Source: Lasiodiplodia sp. COLG20
Taxonomy: Eukaryota > Ascomycota > Dothideomycetes > Botryosphaeriales > Botryosphaeriaceae
NCBI GenBank assembly: GCA_009801085.1
Contig: VNWV01000006.1
Location: 372,001-436,000 of the forward strand
DNA length: 64,000 bases
Reading direction: 5' to 3'
A model generated the notes under the pieces. It had not been told where the DNA came from and did no database searches. It worked only from the letters and a program-made list of their open reading frames with translations. Below are positions 30,028-64,000 of this stretch, in pieces; the first letter of the stretch is position 1, and each line of letters begins with the position of its first letter. Position numbers and translations under genes: made by a program.

Positions 30028-30144
30028 ACGTACAACAGCCGGGATTCCCCAATGGTCACCCACTTGAGTACTAATCGGCCGGTTCGCAGCTTAAGTACGG
30101 CTGAGCGGACGGGAAGCCCTGCATTCTCTTGTCCGGTCATACTG
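30028..30144 (-). rRNA. 5S rRNA gene, 3' three-quarters recognisable; 5' part divergent or replaced at the element junction
   Basis: On the minus strand the stretch GGGCTTCCCGTCCGCTCAGC (loop B/helix III region), then GTACTTAAGC, GATTAGTA, GTGGGTGACC and the end GAATCCCGGCTGTTGTACGT are unmistakable fungal 5S rRNA. T-runs follow the 3' end. The retained part covers the region where the internal promoter of 5S genes lies. The first ~27 nt are not normal. The helix II partner strand CTGCGAACC should face GGTTCGCAG, but the sequence there reads GGACAAGAGAATGC. The outermost GTATGAC can still pair with GTTGTAC, so either this is a diverged full-length copy (117 nt) or the true 5S is broken near 30118-30122 and resumes beyond the mobile element. 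Confidence 0.85.
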
Positions 30145-30224
30145 ATTTTTTTTGTGATCCGTATATGGTCAATTAGTCGCGCGCATAAATTCCGAAAATG
30201 GGAACCCTAGTCACCCCCCAGTCC

Positions 30225-30300
30225 GCTAATTAGCGAACATTATTTTCGTTTTAGCGAAACGGATCTGTCACGTTTTAGGAAAACGTAAAACGTGCAACAA
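30225..30300. repeat. Cluster of short palindromes near the element's 5' end
   Basis: CGCTAATTAGCG (perfect palindrome), CGTTTTAGCGAAACG (arms CGTTT/AAACG) and ACGTTTTAGGAAAACGT (7-bp perfect arms), followed by ACGTAAAACGT, lie within 76 bp between the 5S gene and the captain. They are candidates for recombinase-binding subterminal repeats. Confidence 0.6.
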
Positions 30301-30448
30301 TATCCTGGCCGCCAAACATGGAATCCCGCTCCCGTATTGCCAGACCTCGAGTATCTGTTTCGGGTCTTCGAATTTTCGGTCAGTGTCGCATTTCGCCGTC
30401 CACGCCTCCCACAGTGGCGGTCAGCATCCACTACAGCGGGTATTCAGG

Positions 30449-30456
30449 TATATATA
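30449..30456 (+). promoter_or_regulatory. TATA element of the captain gene
   Basis: TATATATA lies 86 bp upstream of the captain ATG at 30535. Three other genes in this region (starts 33978, 38941, 48606) have similar elements about 100-140 bp upstream. Confidence 0.55.
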
Positions 30457-30534
30457 GCTTGCGCGCCGCCGACGATGCTACCCAAACTCATCACTCCAGC
30501 ATTTCTTGTTGAATTCTCACTTTTTTTTGCCAAC

Positions 30535-33203
30535 ATGGACAACAAGTATAGTGATCTGATTGCACTTGCAAACCAGTCACAGCCTGCAGACTCCAACGAG
30601 CTGGCCTTTCTTGACTCCTCCCGGGTCAAGGTACACGTCAAACGATGGAAGGAGTACGGTGCTCTCGCATTCATGCAACACTGCTATCTGCTGACCTCTA
30701 CAGATTCGAGAGCGTCGTGTTTTCCCGGGGAGGATCTGAGCCATTTTACCAACCACCAAGCCTCGGCCAGTTGCAAAGCTTCTTCACATGGCTCGTCAGA
30801 GAGAAGAGGGGCGTCCGGGGCAAGCTGTGTATTCGGACACTTCGCAAATGGTGGTGTGATTTGAAGCGTGTGATCGGCTTTCGCGCGAACCACATATATA
30901 CTAAGAAAGAAGACACAATTATGAACGACGTAAGAAGGCTACCCTGCTCGGCGAACGTATTTTAACATACTACTAGTTCATCGACGGCCTAGACGTGAAG
31001 GAGGGTGCAGTAACAAAAGGCGCACCGAAGCCTATGGCAACCTGGGCAGTAGTTGAAGATTTGCTATACTATCTATGGGCATGTGACGAGCATGTTTTCA
31101 AACATCCTCGCATGCGCCTGCAGCTAGCATGGTCCATCCTACTGTCCGGATATGCGGGCGTGCGGCCCGGTGAATTCATCGAATCCAGCCGTTATCGTGG
31201 CACAAATCAAGGCCTTAAATACGGTGATGTTGAGCTTTTTCGCATTGAGAAGGAGGGGGTCCCTTTAATCCATCTCAAGATCACCTTTAAGCTGCGGAAG
31301 AACCAACGGCGGGATGAATCCAAGTAGTGAGTAAAACACCATAGAAAAACCGCTCATGGCTGACACGAGTTTTTACAGTATATCGCTCTCCTTTTATGAG
31401 GAGCCCACGCAGCGTGATGTATGCCCAGTCACAAACTTCCTCGCATTAGCTATTGCTGATGGGGCGATCGATCAAACGGACGTCTTGAACGAAAAGAGGA
31501 TTGCGCCTGGCATGAAGTCGGAGAGGATCCATGTTAAGGAAGCTGTGGCAGAGGTCCCGATTCTCCGTGCGATCGAGAATCAGTGTAAAATCTCGTCAAC
31601 CCGCATACTCAAGTACAGCTCGTTGAACCACTTCCTTGGCCAACTGGGTAAGCGAGCTGGATATGAGGATAACTTGACTTCTTACTGCTTCCGGAGAGGT
31701 GCTGGAAATCAGTTTGATGGTAAGAACGCCGCTGTTTATATACTCTTCTTTGCTCTTTACTTACTTGGACAGAAAACGTCACTTCTGCACAGCGGCAGCA
31801 GCTGATGGGACATGCAAACGAAGCTGTTTTCCAATACTACATTTCGCGGACCTTTGGTGGGGATCTGCAATCGATCATCCTCGGAAGAGAGCAGCAGAAA
31901 GACACTATGAATCTACTACGCTCTATGGAGCTAACGAGGGACCGGCGGGCACCTGGTGAGCCCAGCTCAGAGCTTATCAAATCAGGCGTTCGCGTCGTTG
32001 GCAAAGCAGCTTCTCGTCAAGAGTATGAGCTACAGCGCGCTCGTAAAAAGAAGGAAATGGTCCACATCCGGCAACAGTTCTTCAAACAGTCTCCTCGTAG
32101 TCCATCTCCGGATCCTCAAAAGGCCATGGATGTTGAAGAAACCAAACACTACGTACGCCCGCGCCCTTCGAGGTGCCTCGCCGCCCTTCTCAAATACGAC
32201 CACTCCAGAGACGCTGTTGTACAGAACTTTTACCGGAGAGAGTCTCAAGGGCCTCTCCCGCTCCGGGAGGCTCTCAAACCACTCATTGAAATAGCCAAGC
32301 CCGGCGCCTGGTTTGCCTGTTATCCTCGCGCAAATGCAGAAGATGACGAATGCCCTGTTTGCATGACGAAGTTCCGACCGAAGTAAGTCGCACCATCCTA
32401 GCTGTAATGAGACCATCTTAACTTTTATTAGGCAGGGGAGGTGGAGCTTCAATGATCATCTTATTAAGTGCTGCAAGCGAAGTCAAGAAAAGAAGAGAAA
32501 GGAGAGGCTCAGAACCCAGCCTTACCTACGGCCGATGGAAGCATCTCCAAAGACCTTCTCTAGGCTCAGCGCGGAGGCTATGGACCAGAAGACACAACTT
32601 CGTGGGTCGCACAGGTGTGAGTGGCAGGGGTGCACGGAATCCTTCATATGCCAATCACTCGATGCGGTCACATCTCACATCTCACACCATGTCCACCGCT
32701 CACGGAGCTACCGTTGCCTGTGGTCCGGGTGCTGGACCGCAACTGCGACCCACGTTGACTTGAGTATCCACATGCTCAAGTCACATGGTATGATCTCAGA
32801 GTATACGCTGGACTCTAAAGCATACTACTGTTACCAGTGTGCGGAGTGGTATGAGTCTGATTATGAGTGGGATTCTCACTGCCACGGCCATGTCCAAGAC
32901 GTCGGGGATATGTTCTGTGGAGCTGTCAAGAGGCACGGGATCACAAGCACCGCAGCGCTGTGCCCTTTTTGCCTCGGTGCTCCTGGAAGGCCATCTCACC
33001 GCTACAGGCAATTTCCAGACGGTGGGTCAAGCCTCAAAGAGCACCTTCAGAACCACCATCTTCGACATATCTGTAAGGCGTTCACCTGCCCCCATCCGCG
33101 CTGTCAGACAGAGATAAGTAGTACCGACGAGCTTTTCAGCCATTTTACGGAGGTGCATGGGATCGTTTTTGGGTCTGAGAAAGAAGAGGGAGACGTAGAG
33201 TAG
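30535..33203 (+). CDS. DUF3435-type tyrosine recombinase (Starship captain) with C-terminal zinc-finger region, 805 aa, 6 exons
   Basis: Exons 30535-30653, 30704-30929, 30977-31326, 31379-31719, 31773-32382 and 32432-33203; five 47-53 nt introns restore one continuous frame. The N-terminal part is the DNA-binding/core-binding region (VKRWKEFESVVF, SLGQLQSFFTWLVREK). The catalytic domain shows box I SGYAGVRPGEF (Arg about 178), box II SYCFRRGAGNQF (Arg about 337) and QLMGHANEAVFQYYISR, where His 359 to Tyr 368 has the spacing expected of a tyrosine nucleophile. The family is that of Starship captains, which integrate and excise the whole element. From about residue 540 a Cys/His-rich half follows: CPVCMTKF...HLIKCC, then CEWQGC, CLWSGC, CYQCAEW, CPFCLG and CPHPRC segments of C2H2 type. 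It looks intact, with no stop or frameshift. It is the first gene after the 5S junction and reads inward. Confidence 0.88.
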
Positions 33204-33977
33204 CGTTCAGATTGAGACTTCCGTGAATTTCAATAGGAATTAGTTGTATTCATTTATGTGATGGACAGATCTGTATTTTAGAAGGCTCTTCGTCTTGAGT
33301 GGAGTCATCTTTTAAGTGATACTGACACTCGAGGGATTACTCCTAAGAATTATGAGTTGGACATTAATAAGCTGCATCTCTGGCGCAGCCTTCCTCGTGA
33401 AACTGGATACTACACGGCCAAGTGATTCATTCTATGGAGAGTGCTAGGCAGTGTCAGCTCGCATAGGTAGCCCTTTCGTATACCAGAAACGCCAACAAAT
33501 AAACCAATCAATTGACTATTTAATCGATCAATGAACATTGAACTGCTTAAAAGTGCCCGAGAAAAAAAACACTAGAGCTAGTGATGGGTGGTAATACTGT
33601 CCAAGGTTTTTCGGCGTTCTGTGGAGGGGACCGAGGTTTTAAGGCCGAGTACGCATCCAGAGTTGCATGCTGTCAAATAATTACTCGTGCAGCACACTCT
33701 GATTATGCACAGTGGGTCCATCCAAAGCACCAGTAATCTCCTTAGAGCACTCCGAACCAGCACTATCCGCTGTGCCGCATTCTGTTATTGGCGGATAACC
33801 GGCCAATAGGACCGTTCCATTCATAGCCAGATTGGTACTCATGTCAAAGGCATGCACGGCCCGGACTAGAAGAACATATAAGGCCTCGTGGCTCCCACAT
33901 TCACTCTCCATCACACCCTCATCTGATCAGGAAGACTTCTCTCTCATTCAACATCACCGACCAAGCCCATCCTCAAA
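33204..33977. other. Intergenic, promoter of the chromodomain gene
   Basis: 774 bp, AT-rich, no gene seen. A TATAAG element at about 33877-33882 precedes the next start by 96-101 bp. Confidence 0.5.
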
Positions 33978-35017
33978 ATGAGTTCCCAGCCTCTCTTTGC
34001 GCATTCTACAGCTCCAGTATATCAGCCTGAACCTACGTTTTCCCCTCCATCAACAAAGACGGTATTCCAAGGTAAAATCCCACCACAGCTCGAGCTTATC
34101 GCGCTGTTATCGTTTAGCGACTTTCCAAATATTCTTCCCGCTTACCCTGTGCAGAGAAGCCATTTTCCGATAGAGGCGTAATAGACTTGACGGTCTACGA
34201 TACTCCTGATCATAGAGGGGCGATTTTGGGTGTTGGTGCGAGTGTCGATGCCGAAGAAGACGATGACACCCTCCCGTCTATTGGTACCGTTATCCGGGAA
34301 TGCAAGGCCCGAAAGGATCCCACTATGAAACCCGACTCGTTATACCGCAGTGTACGAAGCCATAGCCGTAAGGATTGCCTCTTCCCTACTTCTTTTGATG
34401 GTCGACCGAATGCTAAGACAGCATTAGCGTCCATGCGCAGAAATAAAAATGGCTTATCTGAAAACTCAATGCTTGAAGCGGATGCCAAAAGCTCCAACGT
34501 AGGATTGCACCCCTTCACGGAATCTGCACTACCTTCAATCACTCAAGATGGTCCGGATCTCGACTGGCGGAAGTACGACGCTAGAGAACCTCAATTCGAC
34601 CACAGAAAGGGCTCTCCGGATGCCTCCTTACTCAGCAACCGCGCGGCTGTCTCTTCTCACTCCGATGCCCCACTGTGGACTGCTCCGACCCCTGTCGCTT
34701 CCGCAGCCAATAAAGGCCTCAGCCGGGGTAAATATATATGGGACCTAACGGACATTGCCGGCGAGGAGCCTCGACTGATCAAAGCCACTGAATTGGCACG
34801 GGAGTTGTCAACAATTAAGGCTAACGCAGACGGGAGTGAGGTTGAACGCCTGATTAAATATCGCTCTCGAAAGCGTCCCGGAGGGCAACGAAGAGTACGT
34901 AGCTATTACGTTCAGTGGAAGGGATACGGTCCGGAGTTCAACAGCTGGGTCACTCGGAGACGGTTAGGTCGCATTAGTCCCTCTCTTCTTCGTGAGTTCG
35001 AAAGCAGGCGGATTTAG
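33978..35017 (+). CDS. Chromodomain-like protein, 318 aa, 2 exons
   Basis: Exons 33978-34071 and 34155-35017; the 83-nt intron joins KTVFQ to EKPFSDRG in frame. The first 240 residues are polar, without a known domain. The C-terminus from about residue 255 resembles a chromodomain: VERLIKYRSRKRPGGQRR, then SYYVQWKGYGPEFNSWV, with the conserved YxVxWxGY...NxW pattern. Chromodomains of this type occur at the ends of retrotransposon integrases and in heterochromatin readers; they bind methylated histone tails. Here it stands alone, with no integrase or reverse transcriptase nearby, so it is not a simple retroelement relic. Directly downstream of the captain it could influence element silencing or target choice, which is speculation. 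Confidence 0.75.
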
Positions 35018-35546
35018 GCTCTCGGGGATGACCGCCAGTTTTTCATTACCACACGAAGACTGATCATTGATTACTGGAAGATTTTGGAATCATATTTTTA
35101 TTCTTTTTTTATGCATCCGACCGCTTTTCCTTTGCTTCATGCTCTTAGGCTCATGGCACACTTTTGAGCGTACATTCCATTCTCCTTCCTTCTATGCAAC
35201 TCACCATAACGCATCCCACCACCAACACTGTTTTTCGGCGAAATTATAAGATTTTGTATGCAGCTCTCGCATCCTACCGCATACCAACTGGGTCCTCTCT
35301 CCCATAATTTCCAAAAACAATCATTATTTCTAGCTGCTGAGTGAACAAACTGGATGGGATGGCTGTGTGCTCTTGCAGTCAACGGCGATGGATTTGTATC
35401 AGGAGACTTTCCTGTTAGTAAATGAAGATCAAAGGCTTTTAGCTAAACGCAGAGCGCTAGAAGGATTTATTGGTCTATCTAGTTGGGACTGAACTGTATT
35501 TATGTATACAGCCCAATGATGTAAGGTTGCAACTCGCCATAAGAAA
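35018..35546. other. Convergent intergenic region
   Basis: 529 bp between the convergent ends of the chromodomain gene and the minus-strand 135-aa gene. Nothing recognisable. Confidence 0.5.
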
Positions 35547-36045
35547 CTATTGACTATTTCTGAGGTGACGCAAACCAGTTGCAGCAATCTTCTTCCATCC
35601 GTACGCTGTAAAGTCAGCAATGAGGGATTAACGGGTCGCATAGCACTTACCTTGGATTCTTCCCTGCAAATCCTTTACAATGCGGTGAGTGAGTTGTAAC
35701 GCCAGTCCTCTGGCAAGCTCTTTCGTGGATGGCAAAGCTACGGTCGTTGACTGGCCTAAAATGGCATCATCTGTTTCACGTGGCCTAGTGGGTTGGTCGG
35801 AGGCATTGCAGTGTTCTCCGACGACCTTGTTGTTGGTTGCGATGCTGTCGACAATTTGTTGGCGTAGTTTTTCAAATTGGAACATTATTTCTTGATGCCG
35901 GTACTCCTCCAGTTTGACGAGCTCCTCAATATGAGCTTCAAGCGTTCCTAGAATGCGTTAGATTGCCATCTACTATCTAAAGGTAGGCATTACCTGGAGA
36001 GGTTGGCTTGCTGGAATTGCAGGAGCGTGACCGTCCCCTTGACAT
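35547..36045 (-). CDS. Small coiled-coil-type protein of unknown function, 135 aa, 3 exons
   Basis: Exons 36045-35994, 35947-35651 and 35605-35547, each junction in frame with canonical GT..AG. The N-terminus is Arg/Ser-rich (MSRGRSRSCNSSKPTS). A charged helical segment follows (EAHIEELVKLEEYRHQEIMF, FEKLRQQIVDSIA) that could form a short coiled coil. A second helix ALQLTHRIVKDLQGRI precedes a basic C-terminus. I do not recognise the family. It is supported only by splice consistency and the good ATG, so moderate confidence. Confidence 0.6.
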
Positions 36046-36379
36046 TTTCTTTGTTGCAAACTTGACATTGTGGCCATGGTGGCTCTATAAAAGGGGCCGT
36101 CATTATCAGTAAACAGGGATTTGTTTTAACAGATTTGTGACAGCTAGATAAACGCTGGGCACAGAGGACATCCTGTTCGCGTAAGCACCATTTAGCATAA
36201 CAACTAGTTCACCGCCATCACTCCTTCAATTATTAGCCTATTATCTCCTAATATGCGCTTTTAGTGCTCATGCGTAATAGTTCCCCGTATCGTGATACAA
36301 GGATGCATCCAACGCTTAAGCCCTAACATGGTTGGAGGTGCAATTCTCTGCGAGTAGCATGGCCCCGGAATTTTAGATG

Positions 36380-36480
36380 TTAACAATGGAAAAATTGTTA
36401 GAATAAATGTTAATAGTAATAATGCCGTTGGTAATGTTAAAAGTGTTGGAAATATTGATAATGTTGATAATAAAAATAAT
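36380..36480. repeat. AT-rich low-complexity island
   Basis: About 100 bp built from AATGTTAA, GATAATGTTGATAA and similar words. The same vocabulary, on the other strand, recurs at about 54130-54260 and 61910-62045. It is immediately followed by a GC-rich palindrome block. Confidence 0.6.
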
Positions 36481-36499
36481 TTTGAAGAAAATCTGCAGC

Positions 36500-37028: not shown

Positions 37029-38007
37029 ATGTTATTTCACTTCAGACAGCGTCGAACTTTCCGGCGGACGAAGACCTATAAGTGTATCCTTGCAGCCTGC
37101 GCCCTGTTATCCTGGATCAAAGTCGGCTTCCTGTTCTTAAACGACTACACAGCTGAGAAGAGCAGTGGGCATCCTGAGAACTGTGAGTATAAGAATGAAG
37201 CACATCATCTTACCGTACGGCTAACTTCGATAAGTCCCCAGGAAGATTTGGCAAATCTTCCATTATCATCAAGGCCACAAGCAGGATTTCGTCGATGGCC
37301 AGGCGCAATGGGCGCTGGCAAATCCCGGCTACCAGTATGAGTGTCTAAATGAAGACACCGAGGACATTTTTGTGCGTCAAGCTTTCCGATACGAGGAGGG
37401 GATCCGCAAGACGTACGATATCATCAAGCGGGACCCAGTGACCCGTGCCGATTTGCTCCGATATCTGGTCCTCCTTGCAGAAGGTGGTGTCTACGTGGAT
37501 GTAGACATTCGACCGATACAGCCAATCGATGATTGGGTACCTCCAATATATGTGGACCAAGCCAACCTAGTTCTTGGGATCGAGCTTGACAAAGGTCTGG
37601 GACCTCTGTGGGAGGGCATGCCATGGACAGTACAGATTTCACAGTCCACGATTATGGCAAGGCCCAATCATCCTCTTATCCGGCGCATGGTGAAAGAGGT
37701 TGAAGTTGAAGTTGCTGCATTTATTAGGGAGCGAGACCCTATGCAAGCAACTCCTCAAATTGTTTTCGACGATCTAATCCGCCCTACAGGGCCCCAGATT
37801 TTCACTAAAGCTGTTTTTGAGCATCTCTCGGAGATTATAGGACTAAGTATGACTGGTGACGAAATATCTGGACTGGACTCTCCTTTCCTAATCTCAGACG
37901 TCCTGATCATGCCGATCAATGCATTTGAAAGCGGTCAGGAATATTCGCAGTCTGGGACAGCATATGATAGGAAGGCACTAGTTTCACACAGAGGGAATGG
38001 TAGCTAG
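37029..38007 (+). CDS. GT32 (OCH1/capsular-type) glycosyltransferase, 307 aa, 2 exons
   Basis: Exons 37029-37186 and 37242-38007. The 55-nt intron rejoins HPENC with EKIWQIFHYHQ, the family's entry motif. A type II membrane anchor lies near residues 20-40 (CILAACALLSWIKVGFLFL) after a basic cytosolic N-terminus, so it is probably Golgi-resident. The sugar-binding region is TRADLLRYLVLLAEGGVYVD followed by VDIRP, giving the DxD nucleotide-sugar motif in DVD. Family members transfer sugars such as mannose to glycans using GDP- or UDP-sugars; the substrate is not determinable here. An alternative donor four bases upstream (GTGAGT at 37183) would create an immediate stop, so the GTATAA donor was chosen. 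Likely cargo of the element. Confidence 0.85.
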
Positions 38008-41382: not shown

Positions 41383-44367
41383 TTATCTCTTCTCATAACG
41401 TCCCCTATAGGAAGAGACAGCCACGATCAAGAATATTAACGGTATAACCATCCCGGGCTCAACGAAGTTATGTGTGAGAACTACCAAAACTAATCTAGAG
41501 GTTGGAGCGGAAAGAGCTGTGTACAAAGTCCGACCAGTATGATCCCAAGCCAGCAATCCAATACTTACAGCCTCCACTCAAAGAACGGTTTCTCACCTTT
41601 TCAAGAGACTGATGCAACTTCCGGCCGTCTTGAACAGCCTTAGGGTCCCCAGACTTGAGGAGAACCTGAGCCATGGAGTAGCTAATAACCTCAGTTGTAT
41701 CACCTTTAGTTAGATCAAATTGGGACAATATCTCTGACGCGTTTTTCCAGTGCTCAAGCGCTTGACTCCAGTGGCCTTGAAGGTGATGAATCCGGGCCAG
41801 AATTGTGGTAAGCCGCAACTTTGCAAACCTTGAAAGACGGGTACTGCTATGGAGTACGCTACAACAAAGCTGCTCTGCATCGTGGAATTTCTCCTCTTGA
41901 AGTAAAGCCTCTGCCAATGCCAACTTCAGACGTGCAGAGCTCGTAGAACGACCTCTCCCCTCATTTTGCAGTTTCTCTATCTCTGGATCGAGCAGTTTTC
42001 TGGCTTGAATCGGTGCTCTTAACTCGGAGTAGACATCGGCGAGGTTGCAGAAAACATCATCGCGAACCTCTTGGTAAAAGTTTTGGTCCACTGACTCCAC
42101 TCTCGATTGAGCCTTTTGAAGGGATGTCAAAGCTTCACAGAAACGGCCTTCATAGCGGAGAAGCCTTCCGTGTTCTACCTCAACATGGTAAAGAACGATT
42201 CGTCCAAGTGTAGAAGGTAGGTCATGGTTGATTGGCTTCCAGCTCAACAGTGCATCCTTTGCTTCCACAATTTCGTCTCGCTGGACTTTATTGAGAGCTG
42301 ACGAGACGTTGAGAAACCCAACTTGTGACTGAGCTCGTGGGCTTTCGTGATCATCGTATTCCCCGCGCTGGAGTTTGTGGAAGAAGTTGTGTAGAACTTG
42401 GGTTGAGGCCTCGTTTTCTCTCCTGACTCTCAGAAAAGTACTCTCCCGGTATGCCATACAAGCTTGAACGTAACAGTCTTTGTCATGCAGGAGGACATCT
42501 TTCGCTTCGTTGATCGCAAAACTTTTCTGATTCCCGGGAAGCTCGGATGCTGCAAGAAGGCCGAGCGCAATATCATGTCGTGAAGCAATGGGTAGAGTTC
42601 GGTATTCGCCGTGGTTTCGGTATTCTTGGAGCGTGAAGAACAAATTGGCCGCGAGTAGTCGCCCAAGGTCTCCTGATCTAAAAGCTACGTCAGCTTGAAT
42701 CATGGCAAGTTGGTGAGCCCGACAACTTACTGCGGTACAAGATGCTTTCGAGGGAAGCAATATGCGGCCCAAATAAGAGCTTGTCTTCTCCATGCGTTAT
42801 GTGCTGCATAATCGAGACGGGCCATGGCGAGAGTCTTGGCACGTTCGTCGATTACAAATGGCGAAGTTGCTGATGATCTGTCATTGGTCCAAAGAAGAGA
42901 TGACTGAAGAAGTTCGTCGATAGCACCGGAAAGCCTTGGAACATCAAGTAGAAGTGATTCAAGACAGAAATCCAGCCCAAAGAGATGCGGCGGCAGCACC
43001 TCCGGCTCTCCCATCCGGTTCCAACGAGTTTTGCCCGATATCTGAGAGGAAGAGATGTTGAACAGGTGTTTCGCAATCTCCGATTTTCCAAGGAAATAAA
43101 TAAAAATCAGTAGCATGTTGGAGTCGCACGAGGACAATCCAGTGATACCTGGAAGAGATTCCTTAATAGAATCCCAGTCGATTTCGGATGCCGATGGTCT
43201 CATGTGCTGCACCGACTTGGTGCTAAGTGCATTGATCGACATTGCCGTAATAGACTTCGCACCACCAGCTGTTTGGCCCTTCATACCATTCGGGTTTGCA
43301 ACTGCTGCATCTTTCGTGGGGCTGCCTGCTTCTTGACTGTGGCCTATGCGTGTGGTACTCCCCGACGTAGAGGTTTGCCATTGATGGTCGAACTTGCTGG
43401 GCCGCCAAGCGGTCGCCATACCTCCCTCCTGTGCCGACCTAACAGATTCGTTGACAAAGCAGGCTCCTGTATCTTTGTTAAAAGGAGCAGGTCATTTAAC
43501 CATACCAAGCATACCTGACTTGACATCATCAAGGATGCCGTTGATGAAGGAACTGTGATCTTTGGCCTCTTGGAACAGCTCGGTGGCTTTTCCCAGTTGC
43601 TTTACTGCAGCTTGCGTCTCTTTCGCTGACGAGTTCTCCCATCTGTTGCTGGATGAGTGAGAGGTGATTTCTGGCGCATCTATTGCACTTACACATTCCC
43701 CTTTCCGAGGAGGCACATAATACCGGTTAGATCCTGCTCAGGTATGCAAGACTCTTTGCTGGAGTAGCTGACGATGTCCTGCCATTTATAGCCGACACGG
43801 AGGCTTCTGTAAACCGTTTCCTTGATTTTCTTGGGAGTCTCTTCAAAGAGCGGGTTTATCTTAGAAACGATGGGTGTAATGTCTGTGTTCCTCGGGTGCA
43901 ATGAACTGAAAGCATAACACCACGCCCGCTTCAAGATCTTGTTCATCGTGCTTTTGCGGTTGAGTTGCTCCAGGGTTGAATAAATGAGGATGTCGACGTC
44001 AGTGCACTTGATCGGAATGGGACATTGAGGAACCGGCTCTGATCTCCACAACTGATGAAGTCCAGCATCAGGGTAGGATTTCAAGAGGGCTGCATAATTG
44101 TGTTGTCGCTTTCGCTTCTTGCCGTCGGATGCGGCAAATAAGTGCGGGGCTTGCTCAAGGGCTTTCTGGAGGACAGCCACCTGTGTCATGGGTATCAGTT
44201 GCCGACGCGAAATCAAACCAATATTTGACAGTTACCTCCGATGGAGTGATGTCACTAAATTGCTCTTTCCTCAATTTGTTGCAGAGACAGGACATTATTG
44301 CGTCGGATGAGAACCATTGAAAGGTGAAAAGGTGGATGGGTGGGGAGACTGCGGGGCGGTTCATCAT
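41383..44367 (-). CDS. TPR-type helical-repeat protein, about 890-910 aa, 5-6 exons
   Basis: Exons 44367-44236, 44180-43693, 43642-43515, 43466-42731 and 42677-41569 join without frame loss. A last intron (41568-41517, strong GTAAGTAT donor) would add exon 41516-41383 and give 908 aa ending after a hydrophobic segment (GMVIPLIFLIVAVSSY). If that intron is not used, translation stops at 41495 (888 aa). The N-terminal third has no known domain; a short helical segment (AAVKQLGKATELFQEAK) is followed by a Ser/Thr-rich linker. From about residue 500, repeated helix pairs of TPR type occur (EALTSLQKAQSRVES, DDVFCNLADVYSEL, ARLKLALAEALLQEEKFHDA, TTILARIHHLQGHWSQALEH). The architecture resembles the repeat half of fungal STAND/NLR-like proteins, but no NACHT or NB-ARC P-loop is visible. 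An internal start at 44295 is possible. Confidence 0.72.
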
Positions 44368-44447: not shown

Positions 44448-44709
44448 TAGTGTCATGTAAGGATCCCGGGGGTGCCTCTCACGCACCGCCGTCCCAATGC
44501 GGCAGGCGGCAAAGACTCAGGGCTCCGCCGCCGACGATAATGCACACCCAATCGCAAACGACATGATGCCAACAAATGCGGAGGAGCTCACTTGCCGGGG
44601 TATGGTGGCAAATAAAGCGACCCATGGGGTGAAACATTCCCATTTCCTTCAGTGTGATCCCGTTCGAACATCAGTTTGATTCAGTTGTTTTTGGGTTCCA
44701 TTGAGCTCG

Positions 44710-45839
44710 ATGATGTCGCTACACAACATGAACGAAAATCATTCTTACCGGGACGGCTTGGCGCAATCCATGATCAACCCTGTCTGCGAACCCTACAACC
44801 CAAGAAAGAGACGAAGGGGAATGGAAGGGTCGCAAAATGACATTGCGTGCCATTGGTTGCAAAGAACAATCAGCACAATGAGTCAAGAGATAGAAGAATT
44901 AAGGAACAGGGTTCTGAAACTCGAAGAGCATAACAGTAAGGCTACGATGAAGAAAAGTGCTACAATGAAGGAAAGCGCCACAACGAAGGAAAGCGCCAAC
45001 TACGATTGTCCAGTCCAGGGATGCGAAAAGTCGTTTAACCGCTCAGATTCTCTTTTTCGACATGTGATGAAGCACTCCGGCAGAGGACACAAAGAGTTTG
45101 CTAAAAGATGGAAGAAGAGGCGTTGCTGCGGAAAAGAATATCAGAGGGCCTGTGATTACTTTCGCCATCAGCGGCAAAGGCACACAACTCCTGACTTAGA
45201 TGAAGCCCTTGATGGAGAAAAACGCTGTGAGTACACGATATCTATTATCGAACGGATCTTACTTACAGTGGATTGGATCACTGGTACAGTGAAGCTGACA
45301 AAGTTCTCGACGTGGAAACATTACATTCAACAGAAGGCGTACCGGTGCTAGATTTTGATGAGGGCGAGAGGGACCAAGTTCACTTTGGTCCGACGGCTGC
45401 AGATGAGCACAACGTCGACGATGATTCCGTCATTCAATCTTCGGATATCGATGCGGACGCTGCGGACCATTTCCTCCTCGGTGGAGGCTCGATGGAACAA
45501 CCTCGTTACGTACATCCGCCTCCGCACAGCACTGAGATAGCTTCAAACAGGTTCAGCCCATCGGTCAGCTTCGCATCCATCCAACCTTGTGAGCCACATG
45601 GGTCACAAGCACCTTATCTCAGCAATACAGAGCACAACAATTGGCCACCTACACACAGGCTGTTCGCCGCGGTATCGGAAACGTGTCTAGTTTCGCAATC
45701 ATCTGATGATTCTCCCGCCCAAGCATTGTCAGACTCCCCCATCAATTTTCAGGATTGTTTTCAGTCGTTCGACACGTTCAGTGCAGTCCCATTTAATGCT
45801 CCAGTCATGCGGTATCATGGTGCGGACACAGCTTCGTAG
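44710..45839 (+). CDS. C2H2 zinc-finger protein with leucine-rich coiled coil, 363 aa, 2 exons
   Basis: Exons 44710-45230 and 45269-45839. The donor GTACAC, two codons after the alternative GTGAGT, is the one that keeps frame. A basic patch (NPRKRRRG) may be a nuclear signal. A coiled coil follows (TISTMSQEIEELRNRVLKLE), then a short near-repeat KESATMKESATTKESA. A classical C2H2 finger CPVQGCEKSFNRSDSLFRHV begins near residue 100 and ends in H-x5-H. A second Cys/His unit (CCGKEYQRACDYFRHQRQRH) looks atypical. The C-terminal 190 residues are acidic and disordered, plausible as an activation domain. Probably a DNA-binding regulator encoded as cargo, divergent from the TPR gene. Confidence 0.78.
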
Positions 45840-48899: not shown

Positions 48900-49960
48900 T
48901 TTGCCAGGTATAGCAACCCTCGGATCATCACAGCGCCAAGCTAACAATATTACGTCAAGAATCATGTAGATCGATATTCTTCAACTCTGACAGCCATTTC
49001 TCGGCCGTTTGTTTCTTTCCTTTTCCTGAGAAGTGTTTGACAGTGCAGTCAAGCGGAAGGCGATTAAATTGAGTCTACTTGAGCGAGTGTGCGGACATTT
49101 CGGATCTTCTTGTTTTTACTTACATCGCTCCTTTATCAAATATTTTCCATAGTCTTAAATCTCATTTTTACAAACCAGTACTTGATACTAGTCGTTGTCT
49201 TTTGGGTTTGGAGAGTAACGCGGCACTGCAGGGGCTGAAAGCAAGAGACAAACTCAATTTGCTCTCAGACCCTGAGTACAGATTTGTAGCACGCACATGT
49301 GCCGCATATCGCGCATGGTGTAGAAATCTAAAGCGCTCGTAGCCTTCATGTGCGTTGGCTTCATTTCAAGTGACTGCTCGCTTTGCACGTACTAGGAAAA
49401 TGAGGCAAACAAGCGAACGAGTGGCCAATCGCGGACTAAGCCGAAGAACCTTGGTAGAGAGTCGGCTAAAGTCTGAGAACATATGCGCGCTGCTTCTTAC
49501 AGGCAACAAGGCAGTCGTTCGGGAAGTCTGACACTGCAGTAGTGTGCGCAGGTGGTCTGATTTAGGGTGAGATGCGTTAGGACTAGTTTCCTTGGGGATC
49601 AGCCAGCCATGTTAGGTGGGGACAAGGGGATCCTTGCGCCGAGCTGGAAGCTACCTAGGCTCTAGGCGGCGCAATTACCGTTCGAGCTCCCAGTCACGCG
49701 AAAGATCAACAGAGCGGGCGGTCCCAGGCAACGGAAGACCAGGATTCGGTTTTAAGTACTCAGCAATGGATAAGCGCAGTAAGAGGCGATTGTGATGACA
49801 GATGCTTGCTAGGCACGCCGTCGTAGCGCCAAACGACTTTCGGGCGTTGCGCACGCGCCGTTGCCCGCAAATACCCAAGAGCTGTCTCGGAGGAATATTA
49901 ATCCGAGGTGACCTGCCACCGCTTAAGTAGCGCCATCTGCTGGCGTTTTCTTTGTCCACC
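48900..49960. other. Gene-free spacer
   Basis: 1.06 kb. One 87-codon frame (49079-49342) lacks any ATG and is not supported. No repeats or RNA genes seen. Confidence 0.45.
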
Positions 49961-50728
49961 ATGCGGCAAACCAAGCAGGTACACGACCTTGTACTTCATT
50001 CTTCTCCAAACATGGCTTCCCCTCAACGTTTGCGCCTCGTCGGCATGGGATCATTTGCGGATGTCGTAAAGATCTCAGATGGTCGAGTCCGAAAGGTACC
50101 GAAAATTTATCCCGAAGACGATCCCGAGCTGGCCTATTCCAATTTCGTAAACCGTGAAGAACTCAAAAACGAAAAGACAATCTACGAGCGCCTGGAGCAT
50201 CACGATGGAATCATTCGTTGCTTCAAAGCCCTGGACGGATCGATCGAGCTGGAGCTGGCAACTCATGGCGACTTGGAGAAATATATCCGAACCAAGCCCA
50301 TGCCATCTCGGTCATTCAGACAGAAATGGATCCGATCACTGGCAGAGGCCTTTGCCTACGTGCATGCATGCAGGGTAGTTGTCCAAGATGTCGCCCTCCG
50401 CAATATTCTCGTCCATCATGCCGCTTTAAAACTTTGCGATTTCGGCGACTCCTCCTTACTACCAAAGGATACCGACATGTCACGCTTTTGCGCGAGCCAG
50501 ACCACGCCACAAATTGAGATTCTTCATGTAGGGTCCGTCTTCTATTCCATCGCCAGTTGGGAACCTTTTATGTACGACTATTACGAGAACGAGCGTTTTC
50601 CAGAAGCCAAAGAGCTACGTCCGACAGATGGCCTCCCGTTCGCGAATGTCATACAAAGGTGCTGGAATGGGGAATATGCCAGCATGGAGGCTTTGAGAAA
50701 GGACGTCCTTGATACGAAAGAGGAATGA
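49961..50728 (+). CDS. Small protein-kinase-fold protein, 255 aa
   Basis: Intronless, start at ATG 49961 (alternative 50012). Kinase features: glycine loop LVGMGSFADVVKI, candidate Lys in GRVRKVPKIY, catalytic-loop equivalent VVQDVALRNILV (the His of HRD is replaced by Gln, Asp and Asn are kept) and CDFGDSS for the DFG motif. The C-lobe is shortened and ends after CWNGEYASMEALRKDV, so the protein is at the lower size limit of a kinase domain. Such minimal kinases are frequent in fungal accessory regions. Catalytic activity is possible, because Lys, Asp, Asn and DFG are all present. Substrate unknown. Confidence 0.82.
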   Translation: MRQTKQVHDLVLHSSPNMASPQRLRLVGMGSFADVVKISDGRVRKVPKIYPEDDPELAYSNFVNREELKNEKTIYERLEHHDGIIRCFKALDGSIELELATHGDLEKYIRTKPMPSRSFRQKWIRSLAEAFAYVHACRVVVQDVALRNILVHHAALKLCDFGDSSLLPKDTDMSRFCASQTTPQIEILHVGSVFYSIASWEPFMYDYYENERFPEAKELRPTDGLPFANVIQRCWNGEYASMEALRKDVLDTKEE

Positions 50729-51710: not shown

Positions 51711-52048
51711 ACCGGTGTTCCTGTTGTGCGCACGTAGATTTTCCTTCTCTTAAATAATTAGTATAATAATAATGATTCTGACTAAACATCTAGTTTGTAG
51801 CGCCGTTTAAGCGCTGGGGCGAGATTGCAGGGCTCCGTGGCGGCTTTTAACCGTGGCCCCACTTTCCATCGCCCCAAGCGCCCGATTTCCCCCCAGTCTT
51901 TCACGTACCGCGCGGCTTCATAGAACAGAGCGGGACACTGCTTTCCGGATACCCACCTTCAGTACTGAGATAAGCCTCTAGCACGACGATAATTTGTGTT
52001 GCACGCCCCCCGACTGTTCTCTTGCTTCCACGCCAGTCTTCTGTTGCA
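51711..52048. other. Divergent promoter region
   Basis: 338 bp between the coiled-coil gene (minus) and the pseudokinase gene (plus). No element identified with confidence. Confidence 0.45.
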
Positions 52049-53220
52049 ATGGATTCAACCGTCATTCAAGATGCATTCAGTCGCCATCCTCGACCACAAG
52101 CTCCGTCTGTACCTACACACAGTGCCCTTCTCCGCCAGAAGGTAAACTCCGAACCGCCTAAGGCTCTCCAAAACCCCCCTGTGGCATACATACCACCGAA
52201 AATTTCTAGTGATGAATCCGCCGTGCTCATACGCGAATACACCAAAAGCCTAGACATTCCAAGTCCATCTTCTGAAGTGGAAACCGTCAGCAACCGTGAT
52301 CCGTGGACGAGCCTCGAACGTCTGGGAACTTTAATGCAAGGAAATCTGAAGCTAATTCTTTGCGTTACGCGACACGCTCCACAAGCACTGAGGATGCTAA
52401 AAGTGCTTTGCGATAGTACAGCTCTGGAAGAGGTCCGAATAGTCCAAAAATCCGCTCATCCAAACATCATTCGCCTGTTGGATGCTTTCCGCCATGAATC
52501 GGATATCTATCTTGAGCTTGAATACTCCAGAATTACATTGGAGGATATCTTGAGTGTCAGCAAGCGCCTGGAGGAACCTCACGTCAAATTCATTGCCTAT
52601 TCAGTGAGTACTCTCTGTGTATGATAAGAAATGCGCTAACTCGTACGAGCTCTTCTCTGCACTGAAACACATATGCTCCCAGGCGATTTTACATGGAAAT
52701 ATTACCCTCCGAGCAGTGAGGCTAGTTAATGGCATGAGAATAGTCCTCTGTAAGTAATTCATCATCTTAACTTGGAAACAAGTGAAAATTACTACGCTGA
52801 CTAGCTTGTAGCGGACTTCAACCAAGCTCAAGAGTATACCGGTACACTCCCAAACACTGATTTCGATGATTTTGGCCTGGTCCTCCTGCAGTGTATGGAT
52901 GGCGAGGTAGACAGGTTCAAAAGAGATGTGAAGAGCGTCCGTAAGCAGAGAGCTGCAAACAAGGTATTTGGCCTTCGAAACCCTGAGCCCTGGAGTGGCT
53001 CCAAGCAGCTGGTAGACTTCCTGGACGAGCTGTTCAACCAGGATAAAAGCGTCATGATGAAGATTGAAAAACCAGTAAGTCCAAATGCGTTGACCAATTT
53101 CACAACCTCAGCTAAACAAAGAAGCATCCATATGTTCGGAACGAGAGTCAACCGGTGGACATGTCTCATTTTATTGAATTGGCCATGTTGGAATGCTTTT
53201 CCCATTGGACACCGGCATAG
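52049..53220 (+). CDS. Kinase-like protein, probable pseudokinase, 338 aa, 4 exons
   Basis: Exons 52049-52603, 52650-52749, 52812-53074 and 53122-53220; introns 46-62 nt, all phases consistent. A disordered Pro-rich N-terminus (about 1-80) precedes a kinase-fold domain: ALRMLKVLCDS (VAVK position), ALEEVRIVQKSAHPNIIRLL, DIYLELEYSRITLEDIL. The catalytic loop reads LHGNITLRAVRLV, so the HRD Asp is Asn. The DFG position reads LSDFNQA, lacking the Gly. The C-lobe ends KHPYVRNESQPVDMSHFIEL. Loss of the catalytic Asp makes catalysis unlikely, so this is probably a pseudokinase. It lies 1.3 kb from another small kinase-like gene in the same region. Confidence 0.75.
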
Positions 53221-57770: not shown

Positions 57771-60491
57771 ATGCGAGTCGCCTCACGATCGCAGAATGAC
57801 ATGAAGGAAGCAAAGGGTAAGAAGGGTGTGAACGGGAAAAAAGAGAAGAAAGAGACAACTATTCCGCCCACTACGAAGCAGGGCTATGTGTCTACAAAAT
57901 TATCCATTGGCCGATGTTCCCTAATTTGGGATATCGATACCGTTCGAAACTTGCCGTCCATGTTTACCTCATTCCAGACGAGCGGCAAGATTACCGAGAC
58001 CGATCTTGCCCGAGGGTTCCTGCGAGTGAAGGTTTCCGGCTTGCCTTCTCGAGATGAGGCTATTGGAAGAGCCGAGATAAGTGCCGATGAGATTGAAAGC
58101 TCCGCATTTAGACTATCGCGATGTCGAAATTTGACGAAACCCTCGTCGCCGCATCTTTTGGAAGCTCGAAAAGTCCTGTCAGCCCACCGGGGTACAACGA
58201 TTGTTCAACACGCAGACGAAGGGTCAATACTCCACCTCCCAGCTGACCAGAAAGCTGAAACCCTGTGCACCTGGCTATCAAGCCTGATAGAAGACTTTCC
58301 AAACGGTGCGTTGCCGTTGAAGCCCATGCGGTATCTGATTGTGGACATCGAAGAAGCAGCAAGCAGGCAGAAGCTTAACCTCCCTGAACCAATCCTTAGC
58401 TGTGGTTCAAGAATGATGCAGACGAAGGATCAGATACCTGGGATACACACGCCATACGCTTACATCAGCGGCTCCGTATCGACCTTTAGCATGCATATCG
58501 AAGATGCCGGCCTCGCCTCTGCGAACATCGTTTACGCCGGCCATGCAAAGGTATGGGTTATTGTGTCGCCTTGCCACCAGTCAAAGCTGGAGAAGAACCT
58601 GAAAGATATGTTTTGCTCGACTCAGAGCTGCGCGCAGTTCGTACGACATTTGGCACCAATAATCTCACCCCGAAAACTCGCCGAGTGGGATATAGACTTC
58701 TCAATCGTTGTGCAGCAACCTGGAGAGCTAGTCATCACTCTTCCATTCGCATACCATTTTGGCTTCAACCTGGGACCTAACAGAGCCGAGGCAATCAACC
58801 TCACTCTTGACCCGGAGTGGCGGCCACCAAAGGAATACAGATACTGCAACACACATTGCACATCTCAACCAATCACTTCAGACATGCTTGAAATTAAAGA
58901 GTTCCCCGTGCCGCCAGATTCAGTCGACAATATCGCTTCGCCCGACGCGTCAACCCACAGTAATGTATCATCGCCGAACATGGCCCATGTATCACGAAAC
59001 AAGCATTCGAAGCCTTTAGGAGCCGCGGCCCTGCCATTTCTGCGGCCGCTTGAAAGACAGAAATCCGAGCCACCTTGTCCCCTCTCCACAGAGCCTGGAC
59101 CGGCGGTACCAGAACGGAAAAGGAGTCCACTGCTTTCCTCGGAACGAGGCGTTGCTGCAGCAGCCAAGTTGGTGGGGGTATCTGAAGAGTCACTCTCCAC
59201 TCAACGCAGCAATCAAGAGACATTACAAAAGGAATTGCTGGATGCATACGGACTAGAGCCTCATATGGCAGAAACAACACCACTCCCACCCTGGGAAAGT
59301 GAAGACGAGAAAGAAGCTCATTCGGAAAGATCTGACATGGATATCGTTCCGAGTGCTGCACATCACGTGGATCACACGAGTCTTGAGAAAGAGAACCATA
59401 CAGTAGAAGATGTTGTCTTGAGGTATCTTCGTGCCTCTGCCTTCGTCTGCAACCGTCTTGATGAGAGGACCATAGACATGATTTGGCATTCGAGACCAGC
59501 GGGCGTCCCGGCCAGTCGAGCCATCAGAGCTTTTCAGATTGCAGTCGATATTGCCAACCCAAGAGTCCTTTTAGATATAAGGACCGCGCTACGCCATCAC
59601 GAAGCCAACTCCAGAATCATAATAGGAGATGTGAAAACACAAGGACCGTGGGCTAGGAGACTCGCCCATGCGCACATGGCCGCGAGCAACCAAACCGGGT
59701 TCATGCCTCACGCAGCGGTCATTGGTGGAGCTGTGGCACAGGCTCATTATTTCATGACTTACGAGGCTGCCCGCGCGAAGCTAAGAGAGAGAATCAATGA
59801 AAGCAGACAGGAAAAAAACAGGGCGAGACGGAGCAGACAAAAGGCCACACCCATTACAGATGAGCTGGACCGTGAGTGCCAGCAACTTGGAATTGGTACG
59901 CAAAGAGATGCCGCAGAGATACTAAGGACAGGTATCGTTCAAGAGCTGATCAACGTCGGCTTCGCATACGATCGCCTCGACACTCGCGAACGCGTGAACG
60001 TCTTTCTGAAACAAGGAGAAGTCTTATGCCGAATTCTAAGCGCCTACGAGAACGTCGAGGGTTCTAACAAGACGTCAGCGAGAATGACTGTAAGCACTGC
60101 GCTCATCATGCTTTTCCCAGGTGAAGCCAGAGAAGAGCCGGAGCTGGCCATGTACGGGGAAACTCTTGATACGGATTTCTCATTGATGAACGCAGTCACA
60201 ATGAAAGAGTAAGCATGGTCACATGGAGATTCAGGAATGTGTTGCTAATGTTGTAGAATACTCAATTTGCCGCTCACTCTAGCCTCTTGGTTGGGTGGAA
60301 TCCTTAAGCTAATACGCCCAGAGCTACGGGATGTGGACCTGTCCATTCTCCCTCAGCTGATTAAGAAAACTCGGAACGTAGAGGGCGACATAGCTAAGCT
60401 TGCGCTTGAGCAGAAGACAGACGCCGAGATCCGTCTAGCCTACATGGAAGGTGGAGAGGCATTTCAGAAGCTCTTCAAACGTAGTCCATAA
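57771..60491 (+). CDS. JmjC-domain protein, 890 aa, 2 exons
   Basis: Exons 57771-60208 and 60257-60491, joined MKE-ILNLPLTLASWL in frame by a 48-nt intron. The N-terminus is Lys-rich. The JmjC domain spans about residues 205-350: IPGIHTPYAYISGSVSTFSM, then HIED with the HxE iron-binding pair (His 242, Glu 244), YAGHAKVWVIVSP, GELVITLPFAYHFGFNLG with the second His near 329, and AEAINL. This is the layout of JmjC Fe(II)/2-oxoglutarate oxygenases such as KDM4/KDM5-type histone demethylases, but no JmjN, PHD, ARID or Tudor domain is visible. The C-terminal half is polar, then helical, without known domain. Substrate unknown; chromatin modification is the natural guess. Confidence 0.86.
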
Positions 60492-60554
60492 TACGAGCCG
60501 GACTTCCGCCGGCGAGGGAAAATGGAGGAACATTCTACCATCAGTTAGTTTCTA

Positions 60555-61773
60555 TTACGTGTAGCTTTGGCGCTTGGTCGATGGGATTACCTTTCTCACC
60601 AGCGAGCCCGCTGCTATCGTTGAACCCCGGCAGATCCTCACACCTGGAAAAATCGTAACGTTTCCTTCAATGCACACCTCATCCTCGATGTAGACATCCA
60701 TTCCGTAAGCACCCGTTTTGCACCCTCTTCGGCCCTTGGGATTGAAGGTGAATTTTTTGCCGAATATGTTTACATTAGGCCCGATGAAGCACCTCGAGCC
60801 AATGACAACTCTTGATGGATCAACAATGTTGCAATTCGGTCCAATGTAAACTTCGTCGCCAATGCTAATATTGTACCCATACTCGCAAGTGAAAGGGGTA
60901 TCAATCTGCGTATCTGAGCCCAACCAGCTGACCAGTTGTCGCATGGCATTCAAACGGTCAGGCTCACCGAAAGTGTTATTCAGCCGCCACAGCACTCTAC
61001 GGCATTTTTCTCTGTCCTGGACCAGCTGGGGATCTGCTGAGTTGTAAGATCTTCCAGAGAGCATATTGGCTTTCTCGGGAGAGATGCCAAATGGTAATGG
61101 AGTTCCCTGATTGAAAGTTGGGTATGGGATCAAATTTGGGCTTCACTCATTCTTAGTACGTTTCTGAAACAATTACTTTACGACGTGGAACTTACTATTT
61201 CTCGAAATACCTTTGCGTAGTCAGGTGTGCCATAGTCGCTTTCGGGGCATCTGTTAGGTACGACGGGCTGCCCGGTTTTTCCTCTATGAATATGGGATTC
61301 GTGATGCTGCCAATGGCATTGTTGTTTGTAGGATGATCTGATCGTTTCGGGCCTGTCTCTTTTGGGCCAACTTTGAATTGAGCTGACACCATATCAATGG
61401 GTCGGAAATCTAAGTCGCACGAGAGATTGAAACGTCGGCATTGGCTACCTAATAAGCTAGTCAGCGATGTGAGTTAAATCAGGTCTCAGTAGATAAAATA
61501 CAGATGGGTCGCTCTTCATCACACTTCTTCCTACGGCGCCGACAACTGAGACAGCCAGACGTTGTGCGTTTCTGTAACTTTGCGCTGGGTTAACAATTGA
61601 GGATCGTCGTGAGGCGATGTGCATACCTGTCTTTTTGTCTCGGTCTCGTTGTCGCCAGTGAAACATTCCACGGATCCAGTCCTGGACGCAGTGCATTCTG
61701 CGTCTTGTTCCAACGCAGGTGCTGAGACTGCGCTTGAGCAACTATCAGTCAGACTTTCGATTCCCTCCGCCAT
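60555..61773 (-). CDS. Zn2Cys6 DNA-binding domain fused to a maltose O-acetyltransferase-like domain, 351 aa, 4 exons
   Basis: Exons 61773-61627, 61571-61502, 61448-61196 and 61140-60555. The zinc cluster is assembled across intron 2: CLSCRRRRKKCDEERPIC followed by SQCRRFNLSC gives exactly CX2CX6CX6CX2CX6C (about residues 56-85). A linker of about 70 residues follows. The second half begins with the maltose-acetyltransferase N-terminal segment (MLSGRSYNSADPQLVQDREK) and then a left-handed beta-helix hexapeptide domain (ISIGDEVYIGPNCNIV, IGPNVNIFG, VYIEDEVCIEGNVTIFPGV, STIAAGSLV). The His in the usual active site GHDV/FIH position is not obvious. Acetyl-CoA-dependent sugar acetylation combined with DNA binding suggests a sensor-type regulator, an inference. 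Known fungal relatives carry the same fusion, as far as I recall. Confidence 0.83.
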
Positions 61774-62356
61774 TTTTTCCCCGATCGCTTGAGCGTGTTC
61801 TTTGTTTGCTATTTAGCAGATAATATATATTACGTAGTGCTGGTCAGTGCTCTTCCGAACCACAGCTAGGCGCCTGTGGCGCCTATAGTGGGGCGCGTAG
61901 GATTAGTTCTATCAACTTTATCAACATTAATTTTATCAACATCAACTTTATCAACTTTATTATTTTAATTATTTTTTTTAAGTTTATAATCTTTATCATT
62001 TCTAACATCTCTATTTTCTCTACGAATTTTATTAATTTTATTTTTATTACTGTTGCGAATGCAGCGGTGTGGAGATAATTTTAACCAAGACGTTTACTTT
62101 CTTCTACCTACCGTAGCCACGTGCTGAACTAGCCCTATCCGAGAATGCTTGGCGCCCCTCACTCTCCAGCCCGCTTTGGCCTGCAGCGGGCCGCTACAGG
62201 GTAGTTCACCCTGCAGCAGCCTATACCAGGTAGCAACACGCATATGTAGACTGTTTTTCTCAACAATTATTACCATTATAGTTATTTATTTATTAAAACG
62301 ATAATGCTACACTGGTTAAAATTGTAATAGATATAGCTACTAATTTATACATCTGA
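61774..62356. other. Spacer with AT-island and GC-hairpin sequence
   Basis: 583 bp. 61905-62045 is AT-rich with TTATCAAC repeated five times in a short distance. 61870-61895 contains AGGCGCCTGTGGCGCCT, and 62160-62225 contains GCCCGCTTTGGCCTGCAGCGGGC plus CAGGGTAGTTCACCCTG, both able to form hairpins. No gene. Confidence 0.6.
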
Positions 62357-64000
62357 CTAAGGGAGAAATCTTGGCCGTGCAACGGCAAGACGACTATCAT
62401 ATGACTCATCAGGCCGAAACGCAGGAGTAGAAAGGTATATATTGTATGGTAGACCGCGCAGGGCTCTTCGAACGCCATTTTCGAAACTTGGGGGTCCGCA
62501 TACTGTCTCGTAAGTCAGATTTAACAAAAGGATAATATTGACCAAACTCACCACTTATTGCCATGTTTCCGGCATCGGCTTGCCATTCCTTTTGCAAGAC
62601 TGAGGAGATTTCGAAAGGTGCATTGGTGACGTAGGAATTTTGGCGTTCTTTCTTAACTTCCATCTCAATCCCAGTAGCCTCGGTTGCAGAGGAGCCGTGA
62701 GACTGCGGCACGTACTTTATGATGTTGAGAACGTGGCGGTGGTCCATATCCAAGAGCTCATTTAAGAAATCTTCCACCCATAGGACGTCGCTACGCGAGT
62801 AGAGAAACCATATCAAGGTGATTCTTCGAACGCGGGCTGTACTTTGGTTGTGCGCTTCGAGAAGTTGTCGGACTTGAAGCAACTGTGCAGTGATGCCAAT
62901 ACCACAGGCTAAGAACAGCACCTTATCGAACGTGTAAAGGCTGGCTTGCCTACCGTAAGGGCCGTCTATCATAATTCTAACCATATCTTTTCTAGAATCG
63001 AGAAGACTTTGGCTAAAGCCATCGGCTCCTTCTAAAATCATCGTGATATACTGCTTCTGTGCTTCTTTGGTTGACCAAGATACCGTGTATGGGTGGGCCT
63101 GGAGAAACCCTAGTTTTCTTCGACTGATTTCCGGGATGGTTATGTAAACATACTGTCCGGGGAGAATTTTCCATGGCCTAACCAGTTGGATGTCAAGCCT
63201 TGCCGCTACTACACCTAGGCCACGTTGAAGAGGAACGACTGTGCTGCAGTTTGCTGCGTGTAGTCCGCGGTTTCGATATATCAACAAAGCCAACCAAATA
63301 AGTTTCTGAAATAGCCATAGTGAAGAAGCCATGGTCAGGCAAATAAGTGGTATACCTCTATGAGAAGTATGGATCCAGAGAAGAGCAAGAAATGCCGGGC
63401 CTGAACAGGTATGTGAAAGGAGAAACATCTCGTAAAACCGTCGACGGATATACAGGATAGATATTACGGCGATAGAGAGGGATATAGAAAGAAGCTTTGA
63501 GGTTGTTAGAAAGGTTTCCAAGGTATGGAACTTCAACTTACTGTTATGTTGATTGTCGACATGTTCGAGGCGTCCTTGGAGTAATGTGTGATAGCGTGTC
63601 CTAATGCGTAGATGAGACACATTCGACCGATCCATCTGTGCGCAAGAAGGTAACGATCAAGACTCATACCGATGGCTCGATCAACCATGTAACTCGTGCG
63701 CCCTCCGATGTATAAGGGGACTAGGTTGATAAAGCAAAGCATTCCCAGTCTTTTACTAACATCAGTTATGGTAGACACACCAAGAAAAGAAGCGAACGCG
63801 TTTGCCACTATGTATATAGTGAGTACCAGGGCCGCAAAGATGCTTATATCACTGCTTCCTGATGGTCGTTTAAACAGGAGAGTGTTCAAGACCCATTTTC
63901 GTACTAGGGGCTCGAGGTAAAGGTTTATGCATGTAGCCAACATTCGGTAGAATCGACGAACCACAAGCATTCCCAGCAAGGCACCAAAAAATATCGAATA
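62357..64000 (-). CDS. Ferric reductase (FRE/NOX-like), N-terminus beyond window
   Basis: The frame is open to the right edge, so the start lies outside. Internal introns: 63541-63495 and 62551-62503; the second restores the C-terminal NADPH motif ISVCGPPSFENGVRRAL. Visible: membrane helices with the heme-binding His region (LAHRWIGRMCLIYALGHAIT; FLLSHTCSGPAFLALLWIHT), the FAD-binding segment AHPYTVSW, the NADPH-binding DGPYGRQ and LFLACGIGITAQLLQV. The enzyme moves electrons from NADPH across the plasma membrane to reduce extracellular ferric (or cupric) ions. Ferric reductases are one of the gene families repeatedly found as Starship cargo. The last ~30 residues differ from the usual aromatic C-terminus, so a further 3' intron is possible. 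Confidence 0.88.

Follow-up and report, generated by a model that had tools for sequence, protein, structure and literature searches.

The 64,000-nucleotide window analyzed in this study (C56:372001–436000, where C56 is contig VNWV01000006.1 of Lasiodiplodia sp. COLG20; the assembly comprises 43.5 Mb in 88 contigs) contains a disrupted 5S ribosomal RNA (rRNA) gene, an inward-reading gene for a DUF3435 tyrosine recombinase and a series of cargo genes behind it. A first-pass annotation had interpreted this arrangement as a probable Starship giant transposon occupying positions 30118 to 64000. The contig was read 200 kb further to the right (264 kb in total; "extended" positions continue the numbering of the window) and the Starship interpretation was upheld: a Starship of ~72.2 kb splits a 5S rRNA gene on this contig, with both boundaries, a 12-bp repeat, the reconstituted target, a captain at the inward-reading 5' end and cargo domains typical of Starships. 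The locus almost certainly holds a complete Starship whose insertion site is one of the dispersed 5S rRNA genes of a Lasiodiplodia-like fungus.

Boundaries of the element and its 5S target

A total of 35 matches to the Rfam 5S model RF00001 were listed in the genome, which is a lower bound (47 of 2186 candidates were scored). Thirty-four of them are full-length and score between 68.3 and 79.8 bits, whereas the match in the window (30027–30144, minus strand) scores 43.5 bits, confirming the disturbed 5S gene that had been noticed beside the recombinase. Starting at AGAATG and as far as the gene end, this split gene matches two intact copies exactly; its first part diverges from them. The absent 5' part of the gene was found at extended 102293–102312 in the same orientation. 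A 12-bp direct repeat, GCCCTGCATTCT, is identical at both ends of the element, and the right junction reads ...GGTGAAGAT-GCCCTGCATTCT-GCGACCTATGG. The element measures 72,155 bp between the repeats and 72,167 bp if one repeat is counted. The first-pass annotation thus placed the element correctly but not its limits: the left repeat starts at 30116, and the right end, together with the matching repeat expected to the right of the window, lies at extended 102282 (102294 with the repeat).

When the two flanks were joined (170 bases), 130 bases aligned locally with an intact 5S locus at C56:509 kb and 129 of these were identical, the sole difference being located in an A-run past the 5S gene; the remaining 40 bases, upstream of the 5S start, lie outside the local alignment. 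The joined flanks rebuild the 5S gene and thereby define the empty site that the first-pass annotation had sought. Two sites that are 72 kb apart restore a whole 5S gene to the base, which excludes a chance match and from which we infer an insertion.

The arrangement is consistent with a mechanism in which the captain would recognize the 12-bp site inside a 5S gene and carry out recombination between this site and an identical 12 bp where the ends of an excised circle meet. Such a reaction would leave one copy of the 12 bp on each side and the 5S gene split, the cargo being carried along with the element. The host presumably tolerates the split gene thanks to its other 5S copies, of which there are at least 34.

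Whether the element ends mimic 5S arms was considered post hoc: GGTCATAC close to the left end resembles GGTCGTAC of the 5S gene, and GAGCGG lies close to the right end. The mimicry is marginal and is not claimed here. If the register may shift by at most 3, each level of likeness is reached or exceeded by 5.5–5.7% of 10,295 element windows and both by 1.1%; without a register limit the level is reached by 24–26%. The likeness of the left end to the 5S arm may be the reason why the RF00001 match spans 118 nucleotides of the split gene. The idea that the left element end repairs the 5S gene was not supported, as the split gene has a predicted fold unlike that of the intact one.

The captain and its cargo

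The captain is the first gene at the 5' end of the element and reads inward, just inside the 5S fragment, as the first-pass annotation had described. Its six exons (30535–30653, 30704–30929, 30977–31326, 31379–31719, 31773–32382, and 32432–33203) are separated by GT-AG introns and the frame is open. The DUF3435 family (PF11917) was matched above the cut-off on the open reading frame (ORF) 31724–32383, and the ORF 30977–31324 reached 24.8 bits (cut-off 25.8); in a DUF3435 profile search of the whole genome three stretches of the captain scored 57.9, 49.9, and 22.8 bits. The blocks kept in the captain relatives (RPGE at residue 178, FRR-G-GN at 336, MGH-N at 357, and Y-I-S at 368) fit the R...HxxR...H...Y plan of tyrosine recombinases. 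Furthermore, a profile of four captains gave a weak match to XerA (E = 0.021, XerA residues 240–298 of 317).

The C-terminal third of the captain carries C2H2-like motifs (residues 539–791), five identified by pattern, three of which have C-x4-C spacing, and a sixth (from residue 726) identified by eye with a wider spacing; Pfam reports one zinc finger in this tail, below its cut-off. The structure models were too poor to contribute (see below), and the case for a zinc-finger tail consists of the motif spacing, the sub-threshold Pfam match and the fact that two of the three Bipolaris and Exserohilum proteins conserve the tail in part. The host factor TFIIIA reads the 5S gene with nine fingers. 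A captain that finds its target through a tail reading 5S DNA in the manner of TFIIIA can be imagined from the motifs, but we consider this unlikely; if true, it would explain the fixation of some Starships on one essential multicopy gene.

Relatives of the captain were searched among proteins, where ~8,000 candidates sharing most words with the query were scored, so that further relatives may exist. A single-sequence search returned three matches, from Bipolaris maydis and Exserohilum turcica, and an alignment-based search returned five, adding Lasiodiplodia theobromae and Macrophomina phaseolina. The highest identity was found in L. theobromae (99%, 386 of 389 aligned residues, 48% query coverage), followed by a partial DUF3435 protein of M. 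phaseolina (76%, 49% query coverage). The three DUF3435 proteins of B. maydis and E. turcica are 36–39% identical to the captain and share the same motif blocks, and two of them share its last zinc-finger-like stretch.

An ordinary host gene, encoding the ATP-dependent RNA helicase ROK1, is located to the left of the insertion (25954–28320). Among the best 120 of 2105 matches, its product is identical to that of L. theobromae at 724 of 747 positions, which places the genome next to this species; Diplodia seriata follows as the next match over the full length (86%), and the M. phaseolina protein is 76% identical. The identity to L. theobromae differs between captain and ROK1 (386/389 vs. 724/747, Fisher's P = 0.012). 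Horizontal transfer is not claimed because the two L. theobromae proteins may originate from different strains and the comparison involves a single host gene.

Pfam scanning of the cargo covered 51 sequences, namely 50 ORFs (mostly the longest) out of the 179 in the element with at least 90 amino acids and one short exon found by motif; many of the other 129 ORFs overlap, and the cargo functions given here are inferred from domains. A Pfam family was found above the cut-off in 16 of the 51 (table 1). The cargo types named by the first-pass annotation were all recovered: the ferric reductase, the JmjC and TPR genes, two kinase matches and, shortly upstream of the hexapeptide acetyltransferase ORF, a Zn2Cys6 exon. 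This exon matches only the first half of the Zn_clus profile (PF00172, E = 7.1e-6), and the acetyltransferase ORF matches PF12464 and PF00132. Ten minus-strand ORFs were scanned between 77.6 and 99.2 kb and none except the DUF7492 ORF gave a Pfam match above the cut-off. Two paralogous ORF pairs are present in the same region (86484/88631 with 36% identity and 81122/97518 with 25%). The minus-strand ORF at extended 91482–92492 contains two tandem half Zn2Cys6 motifs (KPSCLECRKRKxRC) with a sub-threshold Zn_clus match.

Table 1. Features of the Starship and its target site (positions above 64000 are extended positions)
Feature	Position	Strand	Basis or remark
3' part of split 5S rRNA gene, left flank, includes left direct repeat	30027–30127	−	Rfam RF00001, identity to intact copies, flank join
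Left direct repeat GCCCTGCATTCT	30116–30127	+	Second copy at 102283–102294 (C56:474283–474294)
Starship part within the window	30128–64000	+	Runs on to 102282 (C56:474282)
Captain, DUF3435 tyrosine recombinase, 805 amino acids, 6 exons	30535–33203	+	Pfam PF11917, splice model, relatives, motifs
ORF with C-terminal chromodomain	34118–35014	+	PF00385, E = 5.2e-9
DXD glycosyltransferase ORF	37234–38004	+	PF04488, E = 2.8e-13
ORF of 767 amino acids	38935–41235	+	No Pfam match at E 0.01
Probable TPR protein	41498–43491	−	ORFs 41498–42796 (PF13424, E = 6.5e-9) and 42730–43491 (no match), presumably one gene
C2H2 zinc-finger ORF	44680–45348	+	PF00096, E = 3.5e-6
Protein kinase-like ORF	49931–50725	+	PF00069, E = 1.1e-16
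Second kinase-like ORF, partial domain	51974–52621	+	PF00069, E = 1.4e-9
JmjC-domain ORF, 862 amino acids	57624–60209	+	PF02373, E = 2.6e-24
Putative fusion, probably Zn2Cys6 with maltose-type hexapeptide acetyltransferase	60558–61589	−	Zn_clus exon 61482–61589; Mac/Hexapep ORF 60558–61142
Ferric reductase, two ORFs	62412–64000, on to 64177	−	PF08030, PF08022, PF01794
DUF3723	67496–71265	−	Above cut-off
Patatin-like ORF	72250–72927		Sub-threshold, 26.7 bits (cut-off 27.7)
DUF7924	75143–76627		Above cut-off
DUF7492	83821–84543	−	Above cut-off

Relics and other elements in the genome

The genome was searched for further copies with the two ends of the element. The first 6 kb have no other DNA match, and the last 4.3 kb have two weak matches, both on contig C1 (C1:7322762–7322877 and C1:6767435–6767521). 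These right-end relics align over 217 and 194 positions, respectively, each at 73% identity, and the similarity runs through the element end and the repeat into a 5' fragment of the 5S gene. A cmscan search of the relic regions returned no Rfam match at E up to 0.5, and the relic 5S fragments are therefore identified by sequence identity. Both decayed right ends keep a 14-base 5S start motif unchanged despite a likeness of 73% overall. A decayed left end that includes captain exon 1 is located at C1:41788–42308 (64% identity over 530 aligned positions), with no 5S part found beside it.

The 14-base motif has 38 exact matches in the genome, consisting of 34 unsplit 5S genes, this element, the two relics and one orphan 5' fragment (C56:815270) that has no recognizable element end beside it. 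Seven additional matches with one mismatch were not interpreted, since a reversed control pattern gave 25 matches with up to one mismatch. The locus C67:2631567 showed no similarity to the element ends or to the 5S context.

The relics suggest that related elements struck 5S genes earlier in this lineage. Based on the unbroken captain frame, the identical repeats and the undecayed 5S halves, the element described here appears to be the youngest of the relatives in this genome and may be mobile. Three more DUF3435 genes (~1.058, 1.200, and 1.372 Mb) and DUF3723 matches at 1.225–1.266 Mb were identified within C45:1058186–1373160, a region that probably represents one or more other Starships. 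A DUF3723 gene is also found near the start of contig C44 (C44:32566–34093), on which no DUF3435 match was reported.

Alternative readings and comparison with known Starships

One reading refines the Starship interpretation and does not compete with it: the element would belong to the Voyager lineage, sharing its 5S target and its captain, and would have diverged together with its host family. We regard this as quite probable. Voyager, for which DUF3435 and DUF3723 are described, also targets the 5S gene (PMC10128009). Its printed site, AGAATACAGGGC, is one base apart from AGAATGCAGGGC in this element, and the 12-bp repeat GCCCTGCATTCT is one base apart from the printed GCCCTGTATTCT. Among the other 34 5S copies, 26 contain the site form of the present element within an 18-base pattern, and a single unsplit copy (C45:3033824) bears the printed Voyager form. 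Voyager is tied in print to M. phaseolina (PMC11623301), the species with the second-highest captain identity among the scored proteins, and the identity of the host ROK1 to M. phaseolina is likewise 76%. However, the M. phaseolina captain relative bears no Voyager-captain label. In addition, Osiris, a member of the Enterprise family in Aspergillus fumigatus, also inserts in and fragments 5S rDNA (PMC12153272), and a 5S target therefore does not decide between Voyager and Enterprise.

Several observations weigh against a Starship. No terminal inverted repeats were detected (no exact match of at least 9 bp within the terminal 500 bp of each end); inverted repeats are reported for 18 of 20 elements in one study (PMC12153272) and are given as an optional Starship feature in another (PMC12134995). 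Among the genes that are frequent but not obligatory in Starships, no NLR domain was found in the 51 scanned ORFs; DUF3723 and FRE, on the other hand, were found above the cut-off, which speaks for a Starship, and PLP (patatin) just below it. The two AlphaFold models, one of them of the C-terminal part of the captain, had a mean predicted local distance difference test score (pLDDT) of 38.7 and 31.9 and were unusable. The empty site is known from the joined flanks, and the element from its sequence, with no movement observed. Finally, the shift in base composition is wider than the element.

The first-pass annotation had this shift coincide with the left end of the element, which did not hold. 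The guanine-cytosine (GC) content is already 0.47 at 28.3–30.1 kb, ~1.8 kb before the left end, a value of 0.49 persists for ~8 kb past the right end, and equally low values recur further right (e.g., 0.485–0.49 at 132–140 kb). A two-index test for repeat-induced mutation (RIP), applied to 263 windows of 1 kb with thresholds of 1.1 and 0.8 chosen by the authors, gave no positive window. A wide shift would suit a chromosomal accessory block, formed by rearrangement or introgression and merely edged by a DUF3435 gene, but the exact 12-bp repeat, the 5S gene rebuilt at the joined flanks and the same type of junction at two relics speak against such a block, which we consider highly improbable. 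An assembly artefact that fused two 5S loci, as dispersed near-identical 5S genes (at least 35 matches) could mislead an assembler to do, is scarcely credible, since the contig crosses both half-genes with no N in 264 kb, neither half adjoins its own other half, and a mis-join would be expected to produce a whole or hybrid 5S gene and not a 12-bp duplication with a captain at its edge.

The Starship interpretation agrees with the definition of the superfamily, which includes a length range of 15–700 kb (PMC12134995): the captain is the first gene and reads inward, direct repeats and an empty site are present, and the 72.2 kb include accessory cargo. Elements of this kind and their insertion at this site have been described before, and the present case is a well-delimited new example that leaves the general picture of Starships unchanged. 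No published 5S-targeting Starship was found for Lasiodiplodia or Botryosphaeria in a literature search that covered few subscription journals and no database of predicted Starships: the retrieved passages of PMC13041039 deal with no such element, and PMC11905480 is on Gaeumannomyces. The element may already be part of a catalogue of predicted Starships. As far as the searched literature shows, 5S-targeting Starships are extended to a Lasiodiplodia-like host. A single genome here combines a Starship that appears intact, its target, its two ends and older relatives, and so offers exact substrates for studying the choice of 5S sites by captains. Types of Osiris carry, for example, putative biosynthetic clusters (PMC12153272), whereas none was recognized in the scanned ORFs of this element. 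The same source links direct repeats longer than 6 bp with 5S targeting and reports mean lengths of 38–138 kb. Osiris, in a different host, shares with the Lasiodiplodia element the insertion in 5S rDNA.

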